Positions 17,763 through 26,594 are shown, numbered from the stretch's first letter. The stretch: DNA of 64,000 bases from Alcanivoracaceae bacterium (GCA_029213045.1 JARGPN010000010.1:62001-126000), one strand, 5' to 3'. The notes: a model not told the origin generated them from the letters alone. A program made the numbers and translations.

Positions 17763-18779
17763 GTGGCCAAGAAAACGATGCACAGCAAGGCTGCCCTTTT
17801 ATTAGACGCACACGTTGCGTTTGCCAGCGAACAGCTCACCGGTGATGCGTTCAAAGGATTGGTTGAGCAGCATGTGGATGCCGCCCTGAAAGATATCGAG
17901 AAGGTTAAACTCAAAGACGTTATTTCGTCAGAGCAAGTAAAAACCACTGCCAAGTTCTACGCCAGTGAAATGGACATTAGCCCCGCCATTCCAGAACTGG
18001 TTGGCGATATCTCTCGAAAACTCTACAACCACCCCGGCCATGACGACACCGCGTTGGTTGACGTTCTGCCAGACAAACGTTTTAAAGAATTCGCGCGAAA
18101 AGGCGCAGAAATGCGTGAATTACGCGAGCGCATTATTCGGGAATCCATCAGCAATCCGATGTATGCCGAGTTAATTGGCGACGTGCTTTATCACGGCATT
18201 AAAAATTATATTTCTGACAATCCCCTCACCAAGAAAATCCCTGGCGCGCAGTCGATGATGAAGCTCGGCAAAGGTCTGATGGACAAAGCCACGCCTAATT
18301 TGGAAGAAGGGTTAAAGAAATACGTCAATCACAATATCAAATCATCACTACGCGAAAGCGAACGTTTCTTGATGAAGCATCTCGACGACGACGCCATTTA
18401 TGATATGGCTGAAGAAGTGTGGGATAAGATCAAGCAAAACAAGATCGGCGTTTTCCGCAGCTACGTGAGTGAAACAGATGTAGAAGAAGCCTTCGTCATC
18501 GGCTTTGACTATTGGCGATCACTGCGTGAAACCGATTATTACAATGGCTTAATCGATGCAGGCATCGACTTTTTCTTTGAAAAATACGGCGACAGTAAAC
18601 TCACTGAGGTGCTAGACGAAGTAGGTGTCACTCGCGACATGATCGTGCGTGATGTTATGCACTTTGCACCTACCGTGTTAGCGGGACTGCAAAAGAAGAA
18701 ATTGCTTGAACCAGCACTCAGAAGAATCTTCGCTCCCTTCTATGAAAGTGACGCCATTACTGCCATTCTTGATGCTTGA
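17763..18779 (+). CDS. Conserved hypothetical cytoplasmic protein
   Basis: I do not recognise this 338-residue protein. It has no signal peptide or membrane segment and looks almost wholly alpha-helical, rich in K, D and E. It starts with GTG at 17763, preceded by GAGAGGA at suitable spacing. The gene ends 21 bases before cti and runs in the same direction, so the two may be co-transcribed. That would link it to membrane-lipid adaptation, but this is inference from context only. Confidence 0.75.
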   Translation: MAKKTMHSKAALLLDAHVAFASEQLTGDAFKGLVEQHVDAALKDIEKVKLKDVISSEQVKTTAKFYASEMDISPAIPELVGDISRKLYNHPGHDDTALVDVLPDKRFKEFARKGAEMRELRERIIRESISNPMYAELIGDVLYHGIKNYISDNPLTKKIPGAQSMMKLGKGLMDKATPNLEEGLKKYVNHNIKSSLRESERFLMKHLDDDAIYDMAEEVWDKIKQNKIGVFRSYVSETDVEEAFVIGFDYWRSLRETDYYNGLIDAGIDFFFEKYGDSKLTEVLDEVGVTRDMIVRDVMHFAPTVLAGLQKKKLLEPALRRIFAPFYESDAITAILDA

Positions 18780-18800: not shown

Positions 18801-21116
18801 ATGGCACCGCTGAAAAAGCTGCTATCAGGGTGCATCGCCATCCTTATCATGTCCGCGGCATCCGCCGCGGACATTTCCTTCGAAAAAGATGTTAAGCCCA
18901 TCGTTGACCGCAAATGCGTGGTCTGCCACGGCTGTTACGACGCGCCCTGCCAGTTAAAACTCGAATCCATGACCGGCCTTGATCGAGGCGCCAATAAAAC
19001 GTTGGTGTATGACGGCACTCGAACCAGGGCCGTCGCCCCCACGCGCCTTTTTGACGATGCCAGCACCACCGAACAATGGCGTGACATGGGTTTCTATTCC
19101 GTACTAAAAAGCCAAGCAGACTCCCAGACATCACTCCTGCACAACATGATAGCGCTAGGCAAAAAAAATCCTGTTACTGAAAACGCTCGTCTGCCAGAGA
19201 ATATTGAACTCGGCGTCACCCGAGTAAATGAATGCCCCACGGCGAAGCAATTTCACACCTACGCCGAAGATCGCCCATTTGAAGGCATGCCACTCGCCGT
19301 CACCGGATTGACCGACGCTGAATTTAACACCATGGAAGCATGGATTAATGCAGGCGCCCCGCTCGGTGCTGATACCGTGCAATTAACCCCCGCCCATCGC
19401 GCCTCCATCGCCCAGTGGGAAACGTTCTTAAACTATAGCGACGCGCGCCATTTTCTCGTTGCCCGCTGGCTCTATGAGCATCTCTTTATCGCGCATCTCT
19501 ATTTTTCTGACATCGGCGAAAACAAACGCCCCGTTTTTTTTAATGTAGTCCGTTCACGTACCGCGCCAGGCGAACCCATTGAAGTAATCTCGACGCTGCG
19601 CCCGAACGATGACCCAGGCGGTCCTTTCTGGTACCGACTTCGCCCCGTGCTCGGTTCAGTGGTCCATAAAAATCACACCACCTTTGCGCTGAATACTGCG
19701 AAGCTGGAAAGAACAAAACAACAGTTTCTAGGTGGCGACTGGGTTGTCGAACGCATTCCTAGATTTGATTACGAGCAACGTGCCAACCCATTTGTGACTT
19801 TCGCGGCAATTCCATCTAGTGCTCGCTACCAATTTATGCTCGATGATGCGGAGTACTTTATTCGCTCCTTTATTCGCGGCCCGGTTTGCCGCGGGCAAAT
19901 CGCGACCGACGTTATCCGCGATCATTTTTGGACGTTCTTTCAAGAGCCTGACCAAGATCTCTTTATTACCGACGCAGAGTATCGCGAGAAAGTATCCCCT
20001 TTGCTTGGTCTGCCCGGCCAGAAAGACTCATTGCTGAAGCTAGGCCCAGAATGGTTAAGCTATAAAAACAATCGAAATAAATATTTAGCACTTCGCGACG
20101 AAGCCTATAACGCTGCGCTGCCCAACGGGCCCGACTTTACCACTGTCTGGGATGGCGACGGCCACAACGACAATGCCCTGCTAACCATCTTCCGCCATCA
20201 TGACAACTCTTCGGTGCGTCGCGGCTTAATTGGCAGCGTGCCCAAAACATTTTGGTTGATGGACTATCCGCTCCTTGAACGCAGCTACTATGACCTCGTG
20301 GCAAACTTTGATGTTTTCGGCAACGTTGCTCATCAAGCACAAACACGCTTGTATTTCGATTTAATCCGAAATGGTTCTGAAATTAATTTTTTGCGCATGA
20401 TGCCGCCCGAATATCGCAGCACGATCTTGAATGAGTGGTACCAAGGATCAGCGCAAATAAAGCTGTCCCTTTCTTATACTGAGCTAGACGATACACAGCC
20501 AACGGGTATGACATTTCGTACGGTTGATCCGAAAAGAGAGTTCGCCGAGCGACTGCTCACCGAACTGCGCAACGTCAACGCCATCCCGGATGATCCAATT
20601 AATCGCTGCGCGACCACACCGTGCCATAGGAACGACGCCCCCGCCGCACAGAAAGGTATTGACGATCTGCTCAGCACAGTAGCGGCTCACCGTGCGGAAA
20701 CGATGCCAATGATCAGCTATATGCCCGACGTCACCATGCTTACCATTGAGACTGATAGCGACGCGCCGGTGGTGTACTCGCTGGTGCGCAACCGGTCACA
20801 TTCAAATGTGGCGTTTATGACCGCAGAATCATTGCGCTACCAACCTGAAAGGGACACGCTGACCATCCGGCCTGGCATTCTCGGCAGCTACCCTAATTTC
20901 GCCTTCGCTGTGCCAGCGGATCAGGCCACCGCGTTTGTCGCCGCATTTCGATCTGGCAAAAGCGCAGAAGATTTTGACATGCTGGTTGCACGCTGGGGCA
21001 TACGCCGCAGCCATCCGCAATTCTGGCAGTATTTAGATGGCTACCATAAGTGGCTGGAACAAGACGATCCGCTACAAAGCGGCATCCTTGACATCAATCG
21101 CTACAAGAATTTGTAA
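18801..21116 (+). CDS. cti: Fatty acid cis/trans isomerase (Cti), c-type heme protein
   Basis: Cti converts cis-unsaturated fatty acids of membrane phospholipids to trans, rigidifying the membrane during solvent or heat stress. The 771-residue protein has a signal peptide (cleavage near ASAADISF), and a heme c motif CVVCHGCYDAPCQLK at about residues 33-47. ARLPENIELG and RSRTAPGEPI-type regions are typical of the family. The protein is periplasmic. AGGA precedes the ATG. The next gene downstream in the same direction is a response regulator. Confidence 0.93.
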   Translation: MAPLKKLLSGCIAILIMSAASAADISFEKDVKPIVDRKCVVCHGCYDAPCQLKLESMTGLDRGANKTLVYDGTRTRAVAPTRLFDDASTTEQWRDMGFYSVLKSQADSQTSLLHNMIALGKKNPVTENARLPENIELGVTRVNECPTAKQFHTYAEDRPFEGMPLAVTGLTDAEFNTMEAWINAGAPLGADTVQLTPAHRASIAQWETFLNYSDARHFLVARWLYEHLFIAHLYFSDIGENKRPVFFNVVRSRTAPGEPIEVISTLRPNDDPGGPFWYRLRPVLGSVVHKNHTTFALNTAKLERTKQQFLGGDWVVERIPRFDYEQRANPFVTFAAIPSSARYQFMLDDAEYFIRSFIRGPVCRGQIATDVIRDHFWTFFQEPDQDLFITDAEYREKVSPLLGLPGQKDSLLKLGPEWLSYKNNRNKYLALRDEAYNAALPNGPDFTTVWDGDGHNDNALLTIFRHHDNSSVRRGLIGSVPKTFWLMDYPLLERSYYDLVANFDVFGNVAHQAQTRLYFDLIRNGSEINFLRMMPPEYRSTILNEWYQGSAQIKLSLSYTELDDTQPTGMTFRTVDPKREFAERLLTELRNVNAIPDDPINRCATTPCHRNDAPAAQKGIDDLLSTVAAHRAETMPMISYMPDVTMLTIETDSDAPVVYSLVRNRSHSNVAFMTAESLRYQPERDTLTIRPGILGSYPNFAFAVPADQATAFVAAFRSGKSAEDFDMLVARWGIRRSHPQFWQYLDGYHKWLEQDDPLQSGILDINRYKNL

Positions 21117-21220
21117 CGCTACTTCACAACCGTGCGGCGCATTGATGCAACATTCACGCGCAGCACGGACAATAGCAGTACCAAATGCAATAAAAATTCG
21201 AAAGGGATATGGAGCGGGTC

Positions 21221-21925
21221 ATGGGAATTTCATTGAAAAATTTGTCCATCCTGCTGGTGGAAGATCACCGGCAACTGGCCCAAAGCGTTCTTGAGTATCT
21301 AGAGCAGCAAGGAGCAATTGTCGAATACGCAGGTGATGGTCGATTAGCAAAAGAGCTATTACGCGAGCATCATTTTGATCTAATTCTTCTCGACGTAATG
21401 CTCCCTGGCGAAGATGGCTTCTCGATTTGTCAGTATCTGAGAACCGAATTAACGCTGGCCACCCCTGTAATATTTCTAACTGCCCGCGATCAACTTGATG
21501 ACAAGCTGCTCGGATTTTCACAAGGCGGCGACGACTATATCGTGAAGCCTTTTGCGTTACCGGAATTGCTCGCACGAGTTCAAGCGCAAGTGCGTCGCAG
21601 CCGCGGGGAAGTCGCGCCCCATGTTTTACGTGTGGCGGATTTGGAACTCGACCCTGCCCGCCAAGAAGTGCGCCGAGCGGGACAGCTTTTAAAACTCTCC
21701 CCTACCGCATTTCGGATTTTGCGCATTTTGATGCGCGAGTCGCCCCGCGTGGTAAGCCGTGAGCAACTTGAGCAAGAACTATGGGGCGATTTGGTGCCAG
21801 ATTCAGACGCGCTGCGCAGCCATTTATATAATTTGCGCAAGGCTATCGATAAGCCGTTCTCTGAGCAGCTGCTGGAAACCCTACCAGGCGTTGGGTTTAG
21901 CATACGAGTAGGCGCATCGAGCTAA
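21221..21925 (+). CDS. OmpR/PhoB-family response regulator
   Basis: The 234-residue regulator has a receiver domain with phosphoacceptor Asp58 (LILLDVMLPGEDGF) and Lys109 (DDYIVKPF), then an OmpR-type winged-helix domain from about 133 (LELDPARQEVRRAG to GVGFSIR). GGAG six bases before selects the ATG at 21221 over one at 21209. It follows cti by 104 bp and converges on a histidine kinase gene 34 bp away, its likely partner. Confidence 0.93.
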   Translation: MGISLKNLSILLVEDHRQLAQSVLEYLEQQGAIVEYAGDGRLAKELLREHHFDLILLDVMLPGEDGFSICQYLRTELTLATPVIFLTARDQLDDKLLGFSQGGDDYIVKPFALPELLARVQAQVRRSRGEVAPHVLRVADLELDPARQEVRRAGQLLKLSPTAFRILRILMRESPRVVSREQLEQELWGDLVPDSDALRSHLYNLRKAIDKPFSEQLLETLPGVGFSIRVGASS

Positions 21926-21959
21926 GCGTATTGCTGTGTTCTAACTAAGCGCGCCTATT

Positions 21960-23249
21960 TCAATGAATTCTTTGCCATAAAGGGAACGTGATTTTGACCT
22001 GCGTTCCCTCACCGGGTGCGCTGGCAACATCAACTTTCCAATGCCCCCGCTCGCACAGCCGGTGAACAATCGCCAAGCCTAAGCCATGCCCCGGCTCTCC
22101 GCCGTTACCGCCTCGCTCGAAAGGTTTAAACACGCGGGCAAGCTCTTCGGCATCCATTCCCCGCCCTGAATCGGCGACACAAATATCGTTCTCGCCAATC
22201 ACCACAACAACTTGTCCGCTACCGGTATAGTTAATAGCGTTGCGAATTAAATTGGTCAGCACAATGGTGAGAATCACTTCCGGCACTTCAATCGACAGCA
22301 ATGCATTCTGCTGAACACGAACAGCCACTCCTTTTCGTTCTGCGAAGGGTGATAAGCGCTCGGCTAGATTAACGGCTAAGTCATTGAGTACGATCGGCTC
22401 CCTCGGCAGCTCGCTGTGCTCACTGCGGGCTAGCATCAGCAACGTTTCAATCAACGCCTCCATATCTTCAACGGTGTCATCAATTCGACGACGTGGCGCG
22501 CTCAATCGCTGTGCAGGATCAAGTAACTCTAGATTCGCGCGGATGACGGCAAGGGGTGTACGCAACTCGTGGCTGGCGTCGCGGGTGAACTGACGCTCTC
22601 TATCAACAAATATGAGCAACCTCTCCGCGTACGCTTCGAGCGCTGCCACCAACACGGCGACTTCGCTATCCGCCTCAGCCTGAACCTCAGATAAATCTGG
22701 CCGCGCAGCGGCTGGGTCATTTACCGACACACGCCGCAGAATTTCCGAAAGCTGCACGAGCGGTGACATTAATTGCCGCGAACGACGCCACGCCTGAAAT
22801 GAGGTGAGATAAATCACCAACAACACCCCAGTTAATGGCAATACGCCGAACAAAAATGCCAGCACAGCTACGCGCTGCTCATCGAAAATCAAATAAAGAC
22901 GCGCACCTTCGTGATGTTCAATATACAAAATCGGATTACGACCGTCGTATTGCGCGCGCTGATAGCCATCATCTAATGACCGCAATGCTGGAGGGATAGT
23001 GTCACCGCCACCGTTGGGTAGCGCTAACATGCCGAGCAAATGACGGGTATTTGGGCGCGGCTGATTGGGGTTGGCATCATACAAACCCCAATAGTGCTCT
23101 GCTTCCTTAATTAACGCTTCCTTGAGGAGAACGTTTTCAATAATTTTCGCTGTAACCCAAACACCCAACACCGTCGCCAAGCTGATCAGCAACAACTGCA
23201 TTATAAAAACTCTAGTGAGTCGATGCTGAACACCTGAGCGACGTGCCAT
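21960..23249 (-). CDS. Sensor histidine kinase
   Basis: This 429-residue inner-membrane kinase has two membrane segments (about 14-34 and 129-150) flanking a periplasmic domain of about 95 residues. A HAMP-like linker, HisKA with phospho-accepting His227 (RDASHELRTPLAVIR), and an ATPase domain (NLIRNAINY, DSGRGM, GHGLGLAIV) follow. Its start overlaps the stop of the methyltransferase gene by one base (TAATG), so it is translationally coupled to a lipid-modification operon. The convergent OmpR-type regulator is the likely partner. Confidence 0.93.
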   Translation of the reverse strand: MARRSGVQHRLTRVFIMQLLLISLATVLGVWVTAKIIENVLLKEALIKEAEHYWGLYDANPNQPRPNTRHLLGMLALPNGGGDTIPPALRSLDDGYQRAQYDGRNPILYIEHHEGARLYLIFDEQRVAVLAFLFGVLPLTGVLLVIYLTSFQAWRRSRQLMSPLVQLSEILRRVSVNDPAAARPDLSEVQAEADSEVAVLVAALEAYAERLLIFVDRERQFTRDASHELRTPLAVIRANLELLDPAQRLSAPRRRIDDTVEDMEALIETLLMLARSEHSELPREPIVLNDLAVNLAERLSPFAERKGVAVRVQQNALLSIEVPEVILTIVLTNLIRNAINYTGSGQVVVVIGENDICVADSGRGMDAEELARVFKPFERGGNGGEPGHGLGLAIVHRLCERGHWKVDVASAPGEGTQVKITFPLWQRIH

Positions 23250-24274
23250 TACTCCGCCTTAAATAAATAGTGGCCCACAAACCATTCTTCGCCGTCGTTG
23301 TAACGGAACAACTCCGAGCATGCCATAAAGAACATACGCCAACGCTGCAACCAAATAGCGGCATTTTTCTTACCATAAGTGTCCACTAAAACCGGCATAA
23401 TGTCATCGCGCCGAGCATCCGCATTATCCAACCACGCTTCTAATGAGCGAGAGTAATGCTTGCCGTTGACGCGCCAGCTTCCTTCAACCACATAATTTTC
23501 TTGGCTTCGCTCAAGCAAATCAAAAGACGGCATCACACCACCGGTAAAGAACATACGTCCCATCCAGTTTTCCTCGCCTTCCACTTCGAACGGATAAAAC
23601 GCATCACGGTGGCAGAAAATATGAACGAAAAGCTTGCCGCCGGGCGTTAACCAGCCATGAATACGCTCCATCAGCGCTTTGTGATTTCGCATGTGTTCGA
23701 ACATTTCAACAGACACAACACGATCAATCTTTCCTTGCGGTTCAAACGCCGCAGCATCCGCAGTAATGACCTGTAAATTATGCAACCCTCGCTGTGCCGC
23801 ACATTCGTCAATAAACGCTTTCTGGGACGCTGAATTGGATACGGCGGTGATGCTGGATCGCGGATACTTCTCCGCCATCCATAAAGACAAAGACCCCCAA
23901 CCACAACCTAGCTCTAAAACACGTTGGCCATCTTTTAAATCTGCGCGCTCACAGGTAAGGGCCAACATGGTTTCTTCGGCATCAGTGAGCGTGCGAACGT
24001 TCTCTGTCCACAGTCCGCTGGAATATTTAAGACGTGCACCGAGCACCATTTTATAAAAGGGTGCGGGAACTTCGTAGTGCTGCTCATTGGCTGCTTGCTG
24101 CTCCACGGCAACAGGACCCTGCGCGCAGATCTTCATCAGCTCCATTTTTCGCGCTTCCACGACTTCAGGATTATCTGCTTGCTCGACCCGCAGGCGCTGC
24201 TTTAGCAATCTGCGAATACCAAATCGAATAAAGGCGTCCGGAGCGAGTCCTCGCTCAGCCATCTCAATAATCAT
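23249..24274 (-). CDS. Cyclopropane-fatty-acyl-phospholipid synthase-family methyltransferase
   Basis: The 341-residue SAM-dependent methyltransferase resembles CFA synthase-type and coclaurine N-methyltransferase-type enzymes. The SAM motif is VLELGCGWGSLSLWMAEKYP, with NSASQKAFI and VSVEMFEHM downstream. It is shorter than E. coli Cfa at the N-terminus, so the acceptor may not be a standard phospholipid double bond. GAGG lies five bases before the ATG. It sits between a DUF1295 gene and the histidine kinase gene in one operon. An unusual membrane fatty acid is the likely product. Confidence 0.85.
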   Translation of the reverse strand: MIIEMAERGLAPDAFIRFGIRRLLKQRLRVEQADNPEVVEARKMELMKICAQGPVAVEQQAANEQHYEVPAPFYKMVLGARLKYSSGLWTENVRTLTDAEETMLALTCERADLKDGQRVLELGCGWGSLSLWMAEKYPRSSITAVSNSASQKAFIDECAAQRGLHNLQVITADAAAFEPQGKIDRVVSVEMFEHMRNHKALMERIHGWLTPGGKLFVHIFCHRDAFYPFEVEGEENWMGRMFFTGGVMPSFDLLERSQENYVVEGSWRVNGKHYSRSLEAWLDNADARRDDIMPVLVDTYGKKNAAIWLQRWRMFFMACSELFRYNDGEEWFVGHYLFKAE

Positions 24275-24340
24275 AAATACCTCATCTTAACGCGGTTACT
24301 AATCCTAGAACGTCACGCCGCCATGCAACGCGCTTCGCTA

Positions 24341-25117
24341 TTATTTTGTTTTTGGCCACCATGGGAAAAACATACTTGTCTCTCTCTGATAGCGCTTGTA
24401 GTCCTCGCCACGAGACTTGAGAGCTTGCCGCTCGGTATAGGGAATACCGGTGACAAACCAAAGAAACAAAAACATGAAAGCCGGCGCCAGCCACAGCCAC
24501 ATTGCATGCTCGGCACCGTACGCGAGCAGCGGGTAGCTAAACCAGTGCAACCATTCAAAGAAATAATTGGGGTGCCGAGAATAACGCCACAAGCCTTCGC
24601 GGCATGTTTTTCCTTTGCTATCTGGCATGGCACGAAAATTCGCCAGCTGCTTGTCCGCTAGCGCTTCTCCGGCAAGGGCAGCAATTCCAACGGCTGCACC
24701 GGCCACTAAAAAGCCTGCTGGCACAGCGCGCGTTTCGGTGGCAATTACCCATGCGGGCAACGCAAAAAGCCAGGCCAACAAGCCTTGTGCTTGGAAGAAA
24801 AAGAAATGGAATTGATTAATCTTATCGCCCAGCGCACTTCGCATCGCTTGGTAACGACCATCTTCCTCAGCGCCAGCGATACGATGATGAATATGCCAGC
24901 CGAGTCGTAACGACCAAAAACCGATCATCAGCGCAGTGATTATTCGCGCGATGCTATCGCCGTCGCCCATAACACAATAAAACAACGCAGCCGCGCCGAC
25001 GCCAAATGACCATATAACGTCCGCATGGCTAGCATTATGCGTACGACACTGACGCCACCAGCCAATGACACACGCGCCACTTAACACCACTGCTGTTATC
25101 CATAACGCATTATTCAT
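24341..25117 (-). CDS. DUF1295 membrane protein (steroid 5-alpha-reductase-like fold)
   Basis: This 258-residue protein has about six hydrophobic segments. The C-terminal region (CREGLWRYSRHPNYFFEWLHW) is the diagnostic motif of the DUF1295/steroid reductase-isoprenylcysteine methyltransferase superfamily. Members occur in operons with CFA-like methyltransferases and may reduce or modify fatty acyl chains. Its start overlaps the DUF2878 stop by eight bases, implying coupling. The enzymatic reaction is not known. Confidence 0.85.
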   Translation of the reverse strand: MNNALWITAVVLSGACVIGWWRQCRTHNASHADVIWSFGVGAAALFYCVMGDGDSIARIITALMIGFWSLRLGWHIHHRIAGAEEDGRYQAMRSALGDKINQFHFFFFQAQGLLAWLFALPAWVIATETRAVPAGFLVAGAAVGIAALAGEALADKQLANFRAMPDSKGKTCREGLWRYSRHPNYFFEWLHWFSYPLLAYGAEHAMWLWLAPAFMFLFLWFVTGIPYTERQALKSRGEDYKRYQRETSMFFPWWPKTK

Positions 25118-25730
25118 GATTTTCTAATGCTTCCTTGCTGACAATCTCATCGTCCTTTGAAAACCTACCATTCAACCTGTTGGTAATCCATGCAAAAAAC
25201 GGAATTAGCATGCCCCAACCAAGAGCGTAAACGAGCCCGAGTAGCAAAGGATTTGACGTTTGCGCTGCGCCGAAATGAATGCCTGAAAACACGGATGCCA
25301 CCGATCCGATGGCACCGAGTAACGCGGCGAGCAAGTAGTATCGAGTTAGCCAATTCATAGAATGATTAAATGATTGGGCCAAACCAATCCATAACGCCAT
25401 GATCCAAAAAGGAGGTAGCCAAGACACTTCCTGCAACGCATAGGCAATTGAACCGGTTTGCAGTAATAGAACTTCAAATACGACGCCAACCAACATCCCT
25501 GACACAATAAGTAATGCATCCACACGCCAGCGCCGGGTGACGGTTAAACCCTGCACAATCATTATGCCTAGGGTTAGCGCCGACCAAAGGTTAGTACCGG
25601 CGGCCGCGCCAAAAATAGCCGCCCCCCAAAGCAAGTGGAACAAAACAAAGTTTCCACCTTTACCTAAGAGGTCTGTTGGAAACGAGTTCAGACCTTGCAT
25701 TACAGCCTTGCCGCGAGCGTCACTCAGCAT
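25110..25730 (-). CDS. DUF2878 membrane protein
   Basis: The 206-residue protein is very hydrophobic, with about six membrane segments (LFHLLWGAAIFGAAAG, LPPFWIMALWIGLAQSF and others), matching the DUF2878 family. Such proteins are co-encoded with DUF1295 and CFA-like methyltransferases in lipid operons, but have no assigned activity. AGGAG nine bases ahead supports the start at 25730; a second ATG at 25700 also has AAGG upstream. It is the first gene of the operon running to the histidine kinase. Confidence 0.78.
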   Translation of the reverse strand: MLSDARGKAVMQGLNSFPTDLLGKGGNFVLFHLLWGAAIFGAAAGTNLWSALTLGIMIVQGLTVTRRWRVDALLIVSGMLVGVVFEVLLLQTGSIAYALQEVSWLPPFWIMALWIGLAQSFNHSMNWLTRYYLLAALLGAIGSVASVFSGIHFGAAQTSNPLLLGLVYALGWGMLIPFFAWITNRLNGRFSKDDEIVSKEALENHE

Positions 25731-25821
25731 GGTCGCAAACTCCTGTGCGGTGCATTAAAGTCATATTTCCGGCGCTAGGATAATCACCTGAACGCCAGCG
25801 CTTTTTGAATCGAACTTGCTG

Positions 25822-25853
25822 AAACCGTTTTGTTTAAACCGTTTTGTTTAAAC
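25822..25853. repeat. Tandem 14-bp repeat in a divergent promoter region
   Basis: The 14-bp unit AAACCGTTTTGTTT occurs twice without gap (25822-25835 and 25836-25849), followed by AAAC of a third copy. It lies in the 303-bp gap between the DUF2878 start and the NTF2-like lipoprotein start. It could be a regulator binding site. No regulator has been assigned to it. Confidence 0.7.
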
Positions 25854-25958
25854 AGTGACACCCTGTGAGTCCGGCAGAAAATTGTTACTACGTGCCAGTA
25901 GAAAAACAAGACTCAAAGTGGATTATGTAGTGTCGGAATGAGTATAGGGATGCAAGGG

Positions 25959-25999
25959 GTGAACGGCCCGTGAATCAAGGCCCGTGGGCCTGCGTTCAC
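25959..25999. other. Long imperfect hairpin upstream of the lipoprotein gene
   Basis: GTGAACG pairs with CGTTCAC and GGCCC with GGGCC inside it, forming an interrupted stem about 35 bases before the ATG at 26034. It could be a transcript leader structure or an operator. Confidence 0.4.
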
Positions 26000-26033
26000 A
26001 CAATATTGATCTACGAGGACGGATACTGCGCGC

Positions 26034-26594
26034 ATGAAAAAGCTAACCTCTATGACAGGCCTACTCTTGCTCACTCTTGCTACGATCGGTTGCTCGTCAA
26101 AAAACAATCGCAGCTACACTGACGCTTACAGAGCCGCACTGCAGGATCATCCTGGCGTCGCCATAGAAGGGAAGTCGTCGGTAGATGCCTTTCTCGGCGT
26201 TTATGATCATCTCGGTGGCAAAGACATCGACCAGTATGTAGAGCGTGCCTACGCGCAAGACCTGTATTTCAACGATACCCTGCACACTATTCGTGACAGG
26301 GATACGCTGAAAACGTATCTGATGGAAACCGGTGAGAAAATCGACTCCGTTGAGGTAGAGGTCATGTCCGTCATGCAAGATGGCGCGGACGTCTACGTGC
26401 GCTGGACCATGACAACGAAATTCAAGGTGATGGGTAAGAAAATAGATGCGACAAGTGTTGGCATCAGCCACCTACGCTTTGATGATCAAAACCGCGTTAT
26501 CCTGCATCAAGATTTTTGGGATAACACCGAAGGGTTATTTAGCCACCTACCGTTTATTGGCGGCATAGTGCGCTGGGCGCGCGGAAAAACGTAA
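26034..26594 (+). CDS. NTF2-like (SnoaL-type) lipoprotein
   Basis: The 186-residue product has a lipoprotein signal with lipobox ATIGC (Cys20). Its body has the cone-shaped NTF2-like fold pattern: FLGVYDHLGGKDIDQYVERAYAQD, then DTLKTYLMETGEKI, VYVRWTMTTKF and RVILHQDFWDNTEGLF. Proteins of this type often neighbour CFA-like lipid operons. Here it is divergent from the DUF2878 operon and may share its control region. No catalytic function can be assigned. Confidence 0.8.
   Translation: MKKLTSMTGLLLLTLATIGCSSKNNRSYTDAYRAALQDHPGVAIEGKSSVDAFLGVYDHLGGKDIDQYVERAYAQDLYFNDTLHTIRDRDTLKTYLMETGEKIDSVEVEVMSVMQDGADVYVRWTMTTKFKVMGKKIDATSVGISHLRFDDQNRVILHQDFWDNTEGLFSHLPFIGGIVRWARGKT

Follow-up and report, generated by a model that had tools for sequence, protein, structure and literature searches.

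The stretch of DNA analysed here (the window) comprises 64,000 nucleotides of an Alcanivoracaceae genome, G000. Its plus strand carries cti, which encodes a fatty acid cis/trans isomerase (18801–21116; PF06934, E 1e-277) and is followed after 92 bp by the gene for an OmpR/PhoB-type response regulator (RR; 21209–21925). A gap of 34 bp separates the RR gene from that of a membrane histidine kinase (HK; 21960–23249, minus strand), the last gene of a lipid operon read towards it. The operon begins with a DUF2878 membrane protein gene (25110–25730, minus strand), which overlaps by 8 bp the gene for a steroid-reductase-like DUF1295 membrane protein (24341–25117, minus strand), and continues with a CFA-superfamily SAM methyltransferase gene (23249–24274, minus strand; PF02353), whose stop codon has one base in common with the HK start (TAATG). 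A conserved SnoaL/NTF2-like lipoprotein gene (26034–26594, plus strand) diverges from the operon, and the predicted operator described below is common to both. ORF and Pfam calls reproduced exactly the gene order, positions and spacings that a first-pass annotation had read from the sequence, including the 34-bp gap and the one-base overlap. Upstream of cti lies a gene for a 338-amino-acid protein (17763–18779), which is 21 bp away from cti, has no Pfam or NCBIfam match and is kept in g4 and g5 relatives that do not have cti.

Kinase and regulator have the domain make-up of an OmpR/PhoB-type two-component system (TCS), with REC and winged-helix domains (PF00072, PF00486) in the RR and HisKA and HATPase_c domains in the HK. 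The HK consists of a transmembrane helix, a short extracytoplasmic domain, a second transmembrane helix and the two catalytic domains, and the SHELRTP motif around H227, invariant in the HK alignment, marks the conserved phospho-acceptor histidine. An AlphaFold model of residues 1–215 (mean pLDDT 79) found nothing better in the PDB than weak WalK and dCache-like matches (best E 5e-3), and in a search of PDB sequences the catalytic cores were the only matches. Judged from the model, the extracytoplasmic domain is short and of uncertain fold, and we claim no ligand class for it.

The convergent block is widely conserved. A close HK orthologue (59–78%) is encoded in 42 of the 46 Alcanivoracaceae genomes, and at the family loci fetched the HK converges with the RR and is accompanied by the methyltransferase, DUF1295, DUF2878 and NTF2 wherever the sequence reaches; the G006 locus, which is fragmentary, gave no match to the methyltransferase or DUF1295. 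HKs at 40–48% occur in named genomes of Methylophaga, Hahella, Methylococcales, Porticoccus, Wenzhouxiangella and others. At many of these loci a single operon, FADox–DUF1365–CFA1–DUF2878–DUF1295–CFA2–HK, faces a convergent RR gene, with NTF2 divergent; at Wenzhouxiangella loci DUF1295 was undetected and the RR gene often lies several kb from that of the HK. HK and RR genes are neighbours in all family loci fetched and in most loci of other families, and stand in tandem (RR–HK) in distant relatives. These distant HKs (34–36%; G054, G088, G092 and G124) were rejected as members of the same system, being in tandem with their RR and having no lipid genes nearby; some of these genomes keep ChrR. 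The recurrence of facing RR and HK genes with the methyltransferase, DUF1295 and DUF2878 is far beyond chance, and the convergent arrangement that the first-pass annotation had tied to membrane-lipid modification is thus found again, with its lipid genes, across Alcanivoracaceae and other gammaproteobacterial families. The split between kinase and regulator is therefore an ancient and stable design. Loss is concerted: four family genomes (G007, G014, G019 and G024) lack HK, DUF1365 and DUF2878 alike, and all others tested keep the three (Fisher 6e-6, uncorrected for phylogeny).

Some loci contain additional genes. In many Alcanivorax a gene for a protein of about 280 amino acids, GAF/GGDEF-like by eye, sits between RR and HK (L050 10451–11290 and other g8 genomes, with an RR–HK gap of about 1 kb), and a GGDEF-like gene precedes the RR in G004 (L034 6892–7758). 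A photolyase/cryptochrome gene lies between RR and HK in K189A-like and related gammaproteobacteria (L153, L156, L159, L166, L177, L180 and L183), where DUF1295 is found downstream of NTF2 and not in the operon. In G004 a chalcone isomerase-like gene (PF16036, L034 13364–13921) follows NTF2, and G023 encodes a similar protein; no such gene follows NTF2 in the window.

The intergenic region between DUF2878 and NTF2, short in most relatives, holds a pair of direct repeats of 11-bp period that face in opposite directions, GTSAA-N6-GTGAA ... TTCAC-N6-TTSAC. In the window the first half, GTGAACGGCCCGTGAA (25959–25974, plus strand), is a perfect direct repeat, and the second, TTCACACAATATTGAT (25995–26010, minus strand), is degenerate and takes the perfect form in relatives. 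The predicted operator (25959–26010) thus falls within the interval 25731–26033, where regulator binding had been guessed at the outset. Across the 64-kb window the strict pattern is matched once, by this first half, whereas block-shuffled sequence predicts 0.15 matches. Back-to-back operators were present at 27 of 31 family loci and 24 of 56 loci of other families, some Wenzhouxiangella and methanotroph loci having no strict box; since sites were picked by consensus matching, their conservation at a fixed position is partly built in and the controls are the informative part. The shuffled window yielded no back-to-back operators, and ChrR-bearing relatives had the operator at none of 20 homologous loci (none in 316 kb). 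Upstream of the RR gene, 39 regions held no strict box and a single box with one mismatch (L041). A second full-operator match in this genome (G000:C3:42805–42830) was set aside: it falls within the coding part of FADox, and L089 and L091 have it at the same position, which we attribute to protein conservation. The intergenic region of the window also has a unit of about 14 bp in tandem (CCGTTTTGTTTAAA, 25828–25855), about 100 bp from the operator, which was not seen in the DUF2878–NTF2 intergenic regions of relatives.

By its association with the TCS and its PhoB-like geometry, we infer that the box is bound by the RR. Systems of the PhoB/PhoR type likewise combine a REC and Trans_reg_C regulator with a HisKA kinase and a direct-repeat operator of 11-bp period, one helical turn. 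Here, instead, the two genes are convergent and in separate units, the kinase lies inside the predicted target operon, and the repeat is GTSAA, in contrast to TGTCA in the Pho box.

The box recurs at a second, unlinked locus, termed locus A (at G000:C3 in this genome), which comprises DUF523/DUF1722, MerR (in most species), photolyase, FADox, DUF1365 and CFA1. At least one repeat with at most one mismatch precedes it in 19 of 20 family genomes, where the rate in the window (7 in 64 kb) would lead one to expect about 0.03 in 300 bp. This genome is among the 19 (L088 6090–6105, one mismatch); its nearest relative, G001, has only a weaker CTCAC-N6-CTCAC. Usually there is one direct repeat with no inverted partner, and in two g5 genomes there are two back to back. 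Where MerR is present, the repeat directly precedes paired TTGTACA sites, and these paired TGTACA sites match the published LitR-type consensus (PMC9758184). The locus A of most relatives thus keeps, beside the RR box, the gene and paired sites of light regulation by class II LitR/CarH MerR proteins (PplR and PmlR in Pseudomonas), whereas at this genome's locus A (L088) both are missing and the RR repeat remains. In G009 and G027 the window block and locus A are still neighbours, and Alcanivoracaceae appear to have divided the single operon of other families between these two loci. The early proposal that RR and HK are tied to two lipid-enzyme sets therefore stands in part: the window lipid operon is one of them, and the second predicted target is the photolyase–FADox–DUF1365–CFA operon in place of cti.

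The form of the sites at the two loci bears on which protein reads them. In many family promoters the inner part of the operator, TGTGAA...TTCACA, resembles a CRP/FNR palindrome, and the repeats might belong to a regulator of that type or to another PhoB-type RR, with the TCS controlling something else. This is improbable: the two halves stand anywhere between 21 and 87 bp apart (in most cases 21–25 or 31–34 bp, two or three helical turns) while each 11-bp repeat is fixed, and the box is absent from the 20 homologous loci of genomes that have no TCS. The varying spacing and the usually single direct repeat at locus A led us to reject the palindrome itself.

The position of cti had suggested a single membrane-state sensor that controls cis/trans isomerization from the RR side and a modified-fatty-acid operon from the HK side. 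In both genomes of the window's genus (G000 and G001), the only ones in which cti directly adjoins the RR, it ends 92 bp before the RR on the same strand, and in several other family members it lies within about 3–22 kb of the block. However, neither the window nor any of 12 relatives showed an operator ahead of cti. All four family genomes that have no TCS do have cti, and six that have the TCS lack it. It was also unmatched at the loci of other families, and Cti has been reported to be constitutive, with no transcriptional regulation (PMC5847196). With neither a box nor co-occurrence, cti was dropped as a target; joint control by one sensor is very doubtful, and cti looks like a lineage-specific chance neighbour outside the regulon.

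Among membrane lipids, furan fatty acids act as antioxidants, and the bacterial genes for them are known under sigmaE–ChrR or light-responsive MerR control. The furan-forming oxygenase UfaO is a DUF1365 protein, and UfaM, UfaD and FufM complete the pathway to mono- and dimethyl-furan fatty acids (PMC7380195); FufM is similar to plant AT4G33110 (PMC10940516). At G000:C3 a UfaO family protein (PF07103, E 5e-63) is encoded beside candidates for the UfaM and UfaD of Rhodobacter sphaeroides, which are CFA1, assigned by its domain match to CMAS (E 4e-89), and FADox, by its match to Amino_oxidase (E 5e-24). The window methyltransferase matches the plant N-methyltransferase branch at E 4e-69 versus 9e-26 for CFA synthase, and its closest solved structures are plant coclaurine-type N-methyltransferases. 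Because it resembles plant N-methyltransferases, as FufM does, and is only 28% identical to the UfaM-like CFA1 of its own locus A, it is most likely, by analogy, a FufM-type second methylase adding the second methyl group of furan fatty acids. Between them, the two loci thus appear to cover all four enzyme families of the UfaM–UfaD–UfaO–FufM pathway of R. sphaeroides and Rhodopseudomonas palustris. The system differs from that pathway in its regulation and in the additional DUF1295 and DUF2878 proteins, which are candidates for further steps, and the furan product here is predicted from genes. Taken as one regulon, the two loci would equip the cell against photo-oxidative damage with both dimethyl furan fatty acids and a photolyase.

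The same two loci could be under TCS control with a different outcome, such as another methylated or cyclopropane lipid or a head-group modification, the signal being a membrane stressed by solvents or alkanes. Many of the carriers use hydrocarbons or methane, the window methyltransferase is close to N-methyltransferases, and DUF1295 and DUF2878 have no assigned pathway step. Against this, the genes that these genomes place under one and the same box encode a DUF1365 (UfaO family) protein, a FAD enzyme of the amine-oxidoreductase type, a UfaM homologue of the CFA type and a photolyase, and the FADox/DUF1365/CFA/photolyase set is the one known from sigmaE–ChrR and LitR regulons (PMC7380195, PMC5241685, PMC9758184). 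We regard a product other than furan fatty acids as unlikely.

The genomes that carry furan-type genes differ in their regulators. TIGR02451 (ChrR) exceeded its curated cut-off in 53 of 144 genomes, with no match in G000, none of the 46 family genomes over the cut-off, and none in G085, G111 and G142, the other genomes with a high-scoring TCS. Among DUF1365-positive genomes, ChrR was found in 0 of 44 with the TCS versus 46 of 69 without it; since a single family supplies most of the TCS genomes, these statistics overstate independence and the effective sample is small. In R. sphaeroides and Vibrio cholerae the sigmaE–ChrR target families are alike, with UfaD, UfaO (DUF1365), a CFA-like UfaM and photolyase (PMC7380195, PMC5241685), and many ChrR loci include DUF2878 and NTF2-like genes, as here. 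The present system differs in having a membrane kinase and a PhoB-type RR, in the family-wide absence of ChrR, and in the 11-bp repeat, which is absent at ChrR loci. On the best reading of this distribution, the TCS would take the place that sigmaE–ChrR has in relatives.

Together, these comparisons make it probable that a dedicated TCS controls a furan-fatty-acid regulon, consisting of the window operon and the photolyase–ufaD–ufaO–ufaM operon, in place of sigmaE–ChrR and with cti as a neighbour only. In this circuit the HK would sense a membrane or periplasmic consequence of photo-oxidative or oxidative stress and phosphorylate the convergently encoded RR. Phosphorylated RR would then bind the GTSAA-N6-GTGAA repeats between DUF2878 and NTF2 as well as the site before the distant photolyase–ufaD–ufaO–ufaM operon, turning on first methylation, desaturation, furan ring formation and second methylation jointly, with activation more plausible than repression. 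Because the HK gene is last in the box-controlled operon and the RR gene forms its own unit with no box, induction would raise the sensor while the regulator stays constant; the best reading is that the kinase lies within its own regulon and the regulator outside it. More tentatively, a membrane kinase with no recognised photoreceptor domain may sense singlet-oxygen or lipid-peroxide damage, or furan lipids themselves, having taken over this regulon in the course of evolution from the cytoplasmic ECF sigma/ChrR switch; feedback would then run through the kinase alone, and DUF1295 and DUF2878 would act in further pathway steps.

We found no open-access paper on a two-component system for furan fatty acids; most subscription papers lay outside the search, and priority is unproven. 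The predicted operator and its two target loci make the proposal directly testable in culturable Alcanivorax, Methylophaga and Hahella. Eight g8 genomes have one more TTCAC-N6-TTCAC repeat, its spacer variable (L219, L220, L224 and L232, near 1501–1546), directly after a ketoacyl-synthase-like gene, before a terminator and upstream of a gene for a small EGKCGE-repeat protein.
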